A DNA stretch of 64,000 bases, taken from the NCBI GenBank assembly GCA_004402895.1, contig SORT01000005.1:1-64000 (forward strand). Direction: 5' to 3'. The DNA is from Fidelibacterota bacterium MT.SAG.3. GTDB lineage: Bacteria > Fidelibacterota > SORT01. Position 1 is the stretch's first letter. The number at the start of each line of letters is the position of its first letter. Positions 11,312 through 15,061 of the stretch are shown here, one piece after another. Under the pieces are notes generated by a model. The model was not told the DNA's origin. It saw only the letters and a program-made list of their open reading frames with translations, and did no database searches. The position numbers and the translations under genes are program-made.

Positions 11312-12358
11312 TTATTCCGATGGGTTCCAAATAGCTGTTCTCGGATAAAACCCTCTCCACCCGAACCAGAATGCCTGAGTGCTTACAAAAGGTTCAAGTT
11401 TCTGACCCTTTAATTTTCCTTCTAAAGCTTCGCCGCTCAAGCCGTTCCAGAGTGTACCCGTCTCAATATCTCTGATGTAATGCCCTTCCGGGGATACGGC
11501 TGTCTCAAAAGATAACAGCTGCTCGCCGACTTGCCTGTTAAAGGCGGTTGCCGCATCAGCGTCTTTAGAGAATACGACCAGCAGGTTAACTCCGGCGATT
11601 GAATAGTTTACAGAGTTTATCCCGACGAAATATTTGTGAGGGAATACAAGAGGAATATCGTCAACGATGAGACCAAGGACTTTATCTTTTCCATCGAGTC
11701 TCCTGTCGAAATTCACTGTTCCAACAATACCGAGCCTTTCTCTTGACCGGTTATATCTATCATAACTCGATCTGGTCGTGAATCTACTCTTCTGAAGTAC
11801 TTTAGAGCCGGGATGGATTTTTTTCCATTCACTCCATTTTAGATGCTGAACGGGTAATGATTTTAGTTGGGTGCCTTTATATTTTCCCTTAATGCCTTTC
11901 CCCGTAACGTGGCTCCAATAGCTCCCAGTTTCCCTGTCGTACATTACAAGTGCGTCCCTCCATAGATTTCCGGACACTCCAAAACTGTTTATCTTTCCTT
12001 CAAATTCCCGGACATACACGATGCCGGTAAAACAAAGAGGTCACCAAGTTACCGAAACATGAACTCCGCCGACATAATCGTTGACTATCTCATGCCTGTC
12101 CAAATGCCAGGTGGAATAAGCTCTTGCGTCGCCGTTGACGACTAAACCCAGGACTAGCTCGTCATCATTCATAAACTTTTCGGCTTCAGGAACTGTCTTA
12201 AATTGCGGATCGTCTATAGCGGGGATTGCGTCAGCGGGGAGAATCTTATACATTTCAGCGCCTTCTATCATTTCGTAAGAACCCCTTTGTGAATAACCAA
12301 TATTTACGTTATACACGATTATAGTGATAATTAGAAGAGTAATAGAACTCAAATTCAT
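11312..12358 (-). CDS. DUF3179 family protein, probable selenoprotein (in-frame TGA at a conserved Cys)
   Basis: One continuous frame of 348 residues is interrupted only by TGA at 12041-12043 (residue ~106). Both sides match the DUF3179 family: before it HEIVNDYVGGVHVSVTW, after it PLCFTGIVY and FGVSGNLWRDALVMYDRETG. Family members usually read VTYCPLC, so TGA replaces exactly the first Cys of the CPLC motif, giving U-P-L-C. A hairpin with GU in the loop sits at SECIS distance, and selD is 2 kb away. Conventional callers would split this into two fragments. N-terminus: ATG 12358 gives a signal-anchor-like start (MNLSSITLLIITIIVY); the frame stays open to 12541, so the start is uncertain. DUF3179 function is unknown. 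A plain nonsense mutation is the alternative. Confidence 0.75.
12008..12027 (-). promoter_or_regulatory. Candidate bacterial SECIS hairpin in the DUF3179 gene
   Basis: Starting 14 bases after the TGA on the coding strand: CCGGCAT, loop CGTGT, ATG-T-CCGG. The stem has seven pairs with a one-base bulge. The loop holds GU at about +22/+23 from the UGA, inside the window in which SelB-binding apical loops usually lie. Confidence 0.5.
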
Positions 12359-14011: not shown

Positions 14012-15061
14012 ATTAAAGAAAAAATACGAATTACCAAGTTTTCTTCGTCAGGCGGCTGAGCTTGCAAGTTAAGTCCGGCGGACTTAAAGGAGCTTCTCAA
14101 AGACTTGCCGACCGGCTCGAGCGAGAATCTGATAATCGGGTTTGACAGCAACGAGGACGCAGCTGTCTATCGCATTACGGATGAAACAGCTCTCGTTCAA
14201 ACGGCGGATTACATCACGCCTATGACGGATGATCCCTATTTATTCGGGCAGCTCGCTGCTGCTAATGCTTTAAGTGATATTTATGCAATGGGAGCAAAAC
14301 CGATAACAGCGATAAATTTGTGTAACTTCCCGGGAGAAGGGATTCCAAACGAAATTTTCAGCGAAATATTAAACGGAGGAGCTTCAAAAGTATTAGAATC
14401 GGGTGCCGTTACGGTAGGCGGGCATACGATTAAAGACGATGAACTGAAATATGGATTATCAGTTTCCGGTATAGTGCACCCGGATAAGGTAGTCAGAAAT
14501 TCTTCCATCGAGATCGGCGATTCTCTGATACTCAGTAAACCTGTAGGTACAGGTGTGCTCTTTAACGGTGTTAAGAAAGGCGCACTCGAATCAAAATGGT
14601 TGGATCGCGCAGTTCAACGTAATGTCGTACTGAATAAAAAGGCATCGGAGCTAATGCTAAAATATGACGCAAATGCCTGCACCGATCTTACCGGATTCGG
14701 ACTGCTCGGTCATCTGAACGAGATGGTATCCTCAAATGATCTATCTATGGAGATTAACGCGTTATCTGTCCCATATTTCGAGAAGGCGATCGAGACTTCA
14801 GAACAGGGATACAAACCCGGAATGTCAAAAGATACGATGAGGTCTCTCGAAAAATCTGTTTCATTTGATTCAACTGTAAGTGAGGCATACCAATGGTTAC
14901 TGGTCGACCCTCAGACATCCGGTGGACTTATAATCTCGATCCCTGAAGAGAGAACTGATGATCTTTTGAAGGAGCTAAAGTCGGACGATTCCCCTGAAGC
15001 AGCCATCATCGGCAAAGTTACCGAACCCGGTCATACGGCAATAATGGTAGTCAGCAAGTGA
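14012..15061 (+). CDS. selD: Selenophosphate synthase, itself a selenoprotein (Sec16)
   Basis: 349 residues if started at ATT 14012 (E. coli SelD is 347). The frame upstream of the first usual start (TTG 14105) reads KIRITKFSSSGG-TGA-ACKLSPADLKELL, the catalytic N-terminus of SelD with TGA at 14057-14059 where Cys or Sec stands in the family. This residue and Lys19 are the active-site pair. Later motifs: DSNEDAAVY, QTADYITPMTDDP, AAANALSDIYAMGAKP, DLTGFGLLGHL, DPQTSGGL. No ATG/GTG/TTG exists between the preceding stop (13994) and the TGA; ATT 14012 has AAGGA (13999-14003) eight bases upstream. It makes selenophosphate from selenide and ATP, for Sec and for selenium-dependent molybdenum hydroxylases such as the one at 53.6 kb. 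Confidence 0.9.
14069..14087 (+). promoter_or_regulatory. Candidate SECIS hairpin of selD
   Basis: A perfect 8-base-pair stem, TTAAGTCC / GGACTTAA, with loop GGC, begins 10 bases after the TGA; the apex lies at +18 to +20. Position suits a bacterial SECIS. The loop lacks the usual GU, so binding details may differ from the DUF3179 element. Confidence 0.55.

Follow-up and report, generated by a model that had tools for sequence, protein, structure and literature searches.

The window, by which we mean the whole 64-kb stretch of DNA analysed, carries a DUF3179 gene on the reverse strand and, with its start about 1.7 kb away, the selenophosphate synthetase gene selD on the forward strand (Table 1). 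Translation of the DUF3179 frame (12358-11312, reverse strand) gave a 348-codon gene whose sole internal stop is a TGA at codon 106 (12043-12041), in the context ...HVSVTW*PLCFTGIVY...; both the single interruption and the proximity of selD had been remarked upon when the DNA was first read without database searches (hereafter the sequence-only reading), and both were confirmed. The read-through protein matched the PF11376 profile with 266.5 bits (E=4e-79) over profile positions 2-292 of 292, the curated cut-off being 27 bits, and therefore belongs to DUF3179. No NCBIfam model matched the protein, and a PDB sequence search returned no homologue. Gene finders that stop at TGA would split or truncate the gene.

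Table 1. Positions of the DUF3179 gene, its predicted selenocysteine site and hairpin, and the genes for selenocysteine synthesis and insertion (window positions where no prefix is given)
Feature	Position	Strand	Remarks
DUF3179 selenoprotein gene (predicted)	11312-12358	-	348 aa, Sec at residue 106; stop codon 11312-11314
SECIS-like hairpin CCGGCAU-CGUGU-AUG(U)CCGG	12008-12027	-	fold; conservation and compensatory pairs
In-frame TGA, read as Sec106 in W-U-P-L-C	12041-12043	-	column TGA or Cys only in 128 domains
Codons of D87-R88-H89-E90	12089-12100	-	candidate active-site partners of Sec106; alignments
selD (selenophosphate synthetase)	14018-15061	+	translation, AIRS domains, fold; itself a Sec gene; start codon tentative
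selA	C1:40360-41454		source genome
selB	C1:41520-43367		source genome, directly behind selA

DUF3179 was found in 22 of 100 relatives, and the addition of the rest of the phylum and of 80 named loci brought the comparison to 128 distinct domains. At the column of residue 106, 70 of the aligned domains have U, 58 have C, and none has any other residue, which places the TGA on the first Cys of the motif exactly as had been proposed; the ratio of Sec to Cys forms is biased, since Sec forms underlay a query that retrieved part of the comparison set. In each of the four same-family relatives, one DUF3179 copy has TGA at this codon and a second has Cys (CPLT; L039-L042), while the source genome (1.75 Mb, 69% complete) shows the Sec copy only. 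The closest named matches come from Candidatus Marinimicrobia MT.SAG.2 (92% identity) and a Neomarinimicrobiota MAG (82% identity), which places the source bacterium in Candidatus Neomarinimicrobiota. Around the site, Trp precedes U in 70/70 Sec forms, where Cys forms often have Tyr or Phe, His-Glu is invariant, and Asp87 is nearly so. At motif position 4, the 70 Sec forms have Cys (51), Ala (17), Leu (1), or Val (1), and the 58 Cys forms have Thr (38) or Cys (20). A separate DUF3179 variant, also a Sec gene, was seen at three loci (L063, L064, and L065, in G129, G051, and G134); it has MGIHELGND and SWU-P-[LV]-C, and the profile matches its second half weakly. Outside the 128 domains, a divergent DUF3179-like protein (L066, G099:C18:58442-59017) has U in S-F-U-G-V-C, apparently at the equivalent place, so that its Sec site does not belong to a CPL motif.

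In bacterial SECIS elements, the apical loop lies about 16-37 nt from the UGA, with a G within the first two loop positions. The hairpin of the source gene starts 13 nt past the UGA and has its apical loop, CGUGU, 21-25 nt downstream, so the claim of a hairpin with GU in its loop at SECIS distance was borne out. Since the fold energy of this hairpin alone is unexceptional (z -0.54), the case for it rests on comparison, for which the 45 nt downstream of the UGA were taken from 68 distinct Sec sequences, with synonymous codon draws (usage taken per gene) as the null for stem pairs. From nt 14 onward, the Sec genes have a 7-bp stem in common and form on average 6.56 of its 7 pairs versus 4.87 under the null, whereas Cys homologues form 2.78 versus 2.33 and never reach 7/7. 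The stem is missing even from Cys forms with the identical downstream peptide ...IVY (e.g., L080, L085, and L114). Two stem pairs show compensatory exchange (pair 19/27, A-U in 38 and G-C in 30; pair 18/28, C-G in 59 and U-A in 7), and the loop reads CGUGU in 53 of the 68 Sec sequences and AGUUU, GGUUC, GGUCU, or CGUGC in the remainder, with G-U at loop positions 2 and 3 in every one. An Rfam search around the DUF3179 gene gave no credible match.

The machinery that selenocysteine would need was found in full. In addition to selA and selB, the source genome has a tRNA-Sec gene (selC; 66.3 bits, the sole match above the cut-off), and selD is itself a selenoprotein gene, with an in-frame TGA at 14057-14059 (GG-U-ACK, in the translation KIRITKFSSSGG-U-ACKLSPADL) and a predicted hairpin immediately after the UGA. 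Because selA, selB, tRNA-Sec, and a Sec-type selD are all present, this bacterium very probably decodes UGA as Sec. Standard open reading frame calling puts the start of selD at the TTG at 14105, which is too late and loses the active site. Across phyla, 27 of 29 genomes with the Sec form have a genuine SelA (called at E<1e-40), compared with 5 of 21 with the Cys form (Fisher p=5e-7); the two Sec-form genomes in which no SelA was found are both MAGs and possibly incomplete. Within the phylum, this co-occurrence is uninformative, as nearly all DUF3179 genomes tested there have SelA.

Taken from sequence comparison, it is highly likely that the TGA of the source DUF3179 gene encodes selenocysteine, which SelB and tRNA-Sec would insert at the UGA under the direction of the hairpin 13 nt behind it. 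If the TGA were instead a true stop, either the gene would have decayed to a pseudogene, the sequence would be in error, or the locus would encode two proteins, and there is something to be said for a true stop, given that a GTG start (12019) lies right behind the TGA and that PF11376 matches the two sides of it separately (E=1e-20 and 4e-45). However, the four family relatives share this TGA, and it recurs in 70 domains from about a dozen phyla, always in one Cys column; the retention of the TGA in all four family relatives excludes sequencing error and decay. In comparison with four relatives, purifying selection acts on both flanks of the TGA (pN/pS about 0.1-0.2), and the hairpin is conserved exclusively where the TGA occurs, all of which makes a true stop very improbable. 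Still less credible is a changed genetic code that assigns UGA to a different amino acid such as Trp, a reading that has the open frame in its favor and nothing more. Against it, the genome has the complete Sec machinery, homologues without TGA all have Cys at the column, and TGA serves as an ordinary stop elsewhere in the window. A scan of TGA codons over the 64-kb window gave no sign of general UGA reassignment: among the long frames, the DUF3179 gene alone had a TGA well inside, and in the rest TGA stood near the end and served as an ordinary stop.

The sequence-only reading had also presented DUF3179 as a probable new selenoprotein family, and this part of it fails, as published lists of predicted selenoproteins already include DUF3179. 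One review (PMC9312934, 2022) has DUF3179 (UxxC/T) in its Table 1, and another (PMC13188914, 2026) places it, also in Table 1, among the families 'predicted with high confidence', with Zhang & Gladyshev 2007 named as the source. The tabulated protein is likewise a comparison-based prediction with the same PF11376 domain and Sec first in a UxxC-type motif; its source is a deltaproteobacterial symbiont, whereas the present gene comes from another phylum, and where the tables give UxxC/T, the Sec forms collected here have C, A, L, or V. A public record, that of a DUF3179 gene on Halorubrum salinarum plasmid pHAR01 (L178), names the product 'DUF3179 domain-containing (seleno)protein', yet Cys is encoded there (WCPIC). 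The Cys forms of the family (CPLT or CPLC) share the domain, the invariant His-Glu, Ser-Gly, Asp, and Trp with the Sec form but have a Cys codon, no hairpin, often Tyr or Phe before the site, and often Thr at the second position. The source gene is thus a well-supported member of a known predicted selenoprotein family. The present analysis adds that the Sec clade is broad, that the second Cys is optional, that the hairpin covaries, and that the domain is duplicated and may have a Rieske-like fold.

By their record labels, the Sec forms come from phyla that include Neomarinimicrobiota, Acidobacteriota, Chloroflexota, Verrucomicrobiota, Calditrichota, Eiseniibacteriota, Zixiibacteriota, Krumholzibacteriota, Planctomycetota, Thermodesulfobacteriota, Myxococcota, and Bacillota; many of the records are MAGs, and individual phylum labels may therefore be wrong. 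In a tree of DUF3179 domains built without the motif columns, one supported group unites 62 Sec and 3 Cys rows and leaves the remaining 54 Cys rows outside; the Sec/Cys label changes 4 times on the tree versus 40 in shuffles. Cys forms are nested three times within the Sec clade, which covers about a dozen phyla. The simplest reading, which depends on where the root lies, is a single ancient Sec clade in which Sec later gave way to Cys in places.

The AlphaFold2 model of the protein (mean pLDDT 92.4, pTM 0.89) leaves residues 1-21 disordered, which is consistent with the signal-peptide-like N-terminal stretch of about 21-25 residues, and export of the protein by way of a signal peptide is probable. 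The remainder is built from a beta-rich domain that is present twice through internal duplication, the N and C halves being homologous by hhalign (99.7%, E=2.6e-25), with the Sec/Cys and His-Glu retained in the first half only. The best specific Foldseek matches in the PDB were Rieske domains (top ten with probability 0.97-1.00 and E 0.007-0.06; TM-score to target about 0.55), although the N half alone matched less well (E 0.4-0.8). A local profile comparison of the C half with the Rieske profile gave P=1e-5 and a probability of 62%, and the match to the Rieske sequence family was marginal (E 0.067, 1 of 46 members). Rieske iron-sulfur protein domains (PF00355) have 2Fe-2S ligand motifs, whereas the DUF3179 alignments contain no conserved C-x-H or C-x-x-H cluster ligand motifs. 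The CPLC motif was considered as the second Rieske motif (CPxHG) and ruled out, as the Rieske ligand positions fall away from the Sec site in the profile alignment. We treat the Rieske-like fold as a lead. Tentatively, and somewhat against the balance of probability, the family may descend from a duplicated Rieske-like domain that lost its Fe-S cluster and gained a new single-selenol/thiol site (Sec/Cys106 with His89-Glu90) in the first copy; the Sec version would be an old clade that spans about a dozen phyla and from which Cys forms were derived more than once.

With regard to function, the U-P-L-C motif had been taken for a redox-like pair, of which the Sec/Cys position proved invariant and the second Cys did not. 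The latter is present in the source protein and in 51/70 Sec forms, and its replacement in 19/70 Sec and 38/58 Cys forms makes an obligatory CxxC-type pair unlikely. The most economical mechanism, about as likely as not, is one in which Sec106 serves as the catalytic selenolate of a redox or peroxide-type reaction, with help from His89-Glu90; Cys109 would regenerate the selenolate in proteins that have it, and an outside thiol would do so in the others; the redox role is suggested by the Cys/Sec exchange alone. In the main alternative, the selenocysteine would be real and the site would bind a metal together with His89 and Glu90, carrying electrons or handling the metal rather than performing thiol chemistry. 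The invariance of His and Glu beside Sec/Cys, the dispensable second Cys, and the Rieske electron carriers among the best fold matches would all suit a metal site, but the misalignment of the Rieske cluster ligands with the Sec site and the lack of a C-x-H / C-x-x-H set in DUF3179 count against it, and few families are known to use Sec as a metal ligand (hydrogenases and formate dehydrogenase); metal binding is the less likely of the two readings but a serious one. Neighbor clustering over about 65 loci revealed no conserved operon partner, and the repeated neighbors (sigma factor, FAD-dependent reductase-like, and glycosyltransferase-like frames, at 5-6 loci each) vary in distance and strand.

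For the large DUF3179 family, the evidence for a selenol/thiol active site now goes far beyond a table entry, with the partner Cys being optional. This narrows the enzymology to test to a one-residue selenol/thiol center beside His-Glu, rather than a CxxC-type disulfide.
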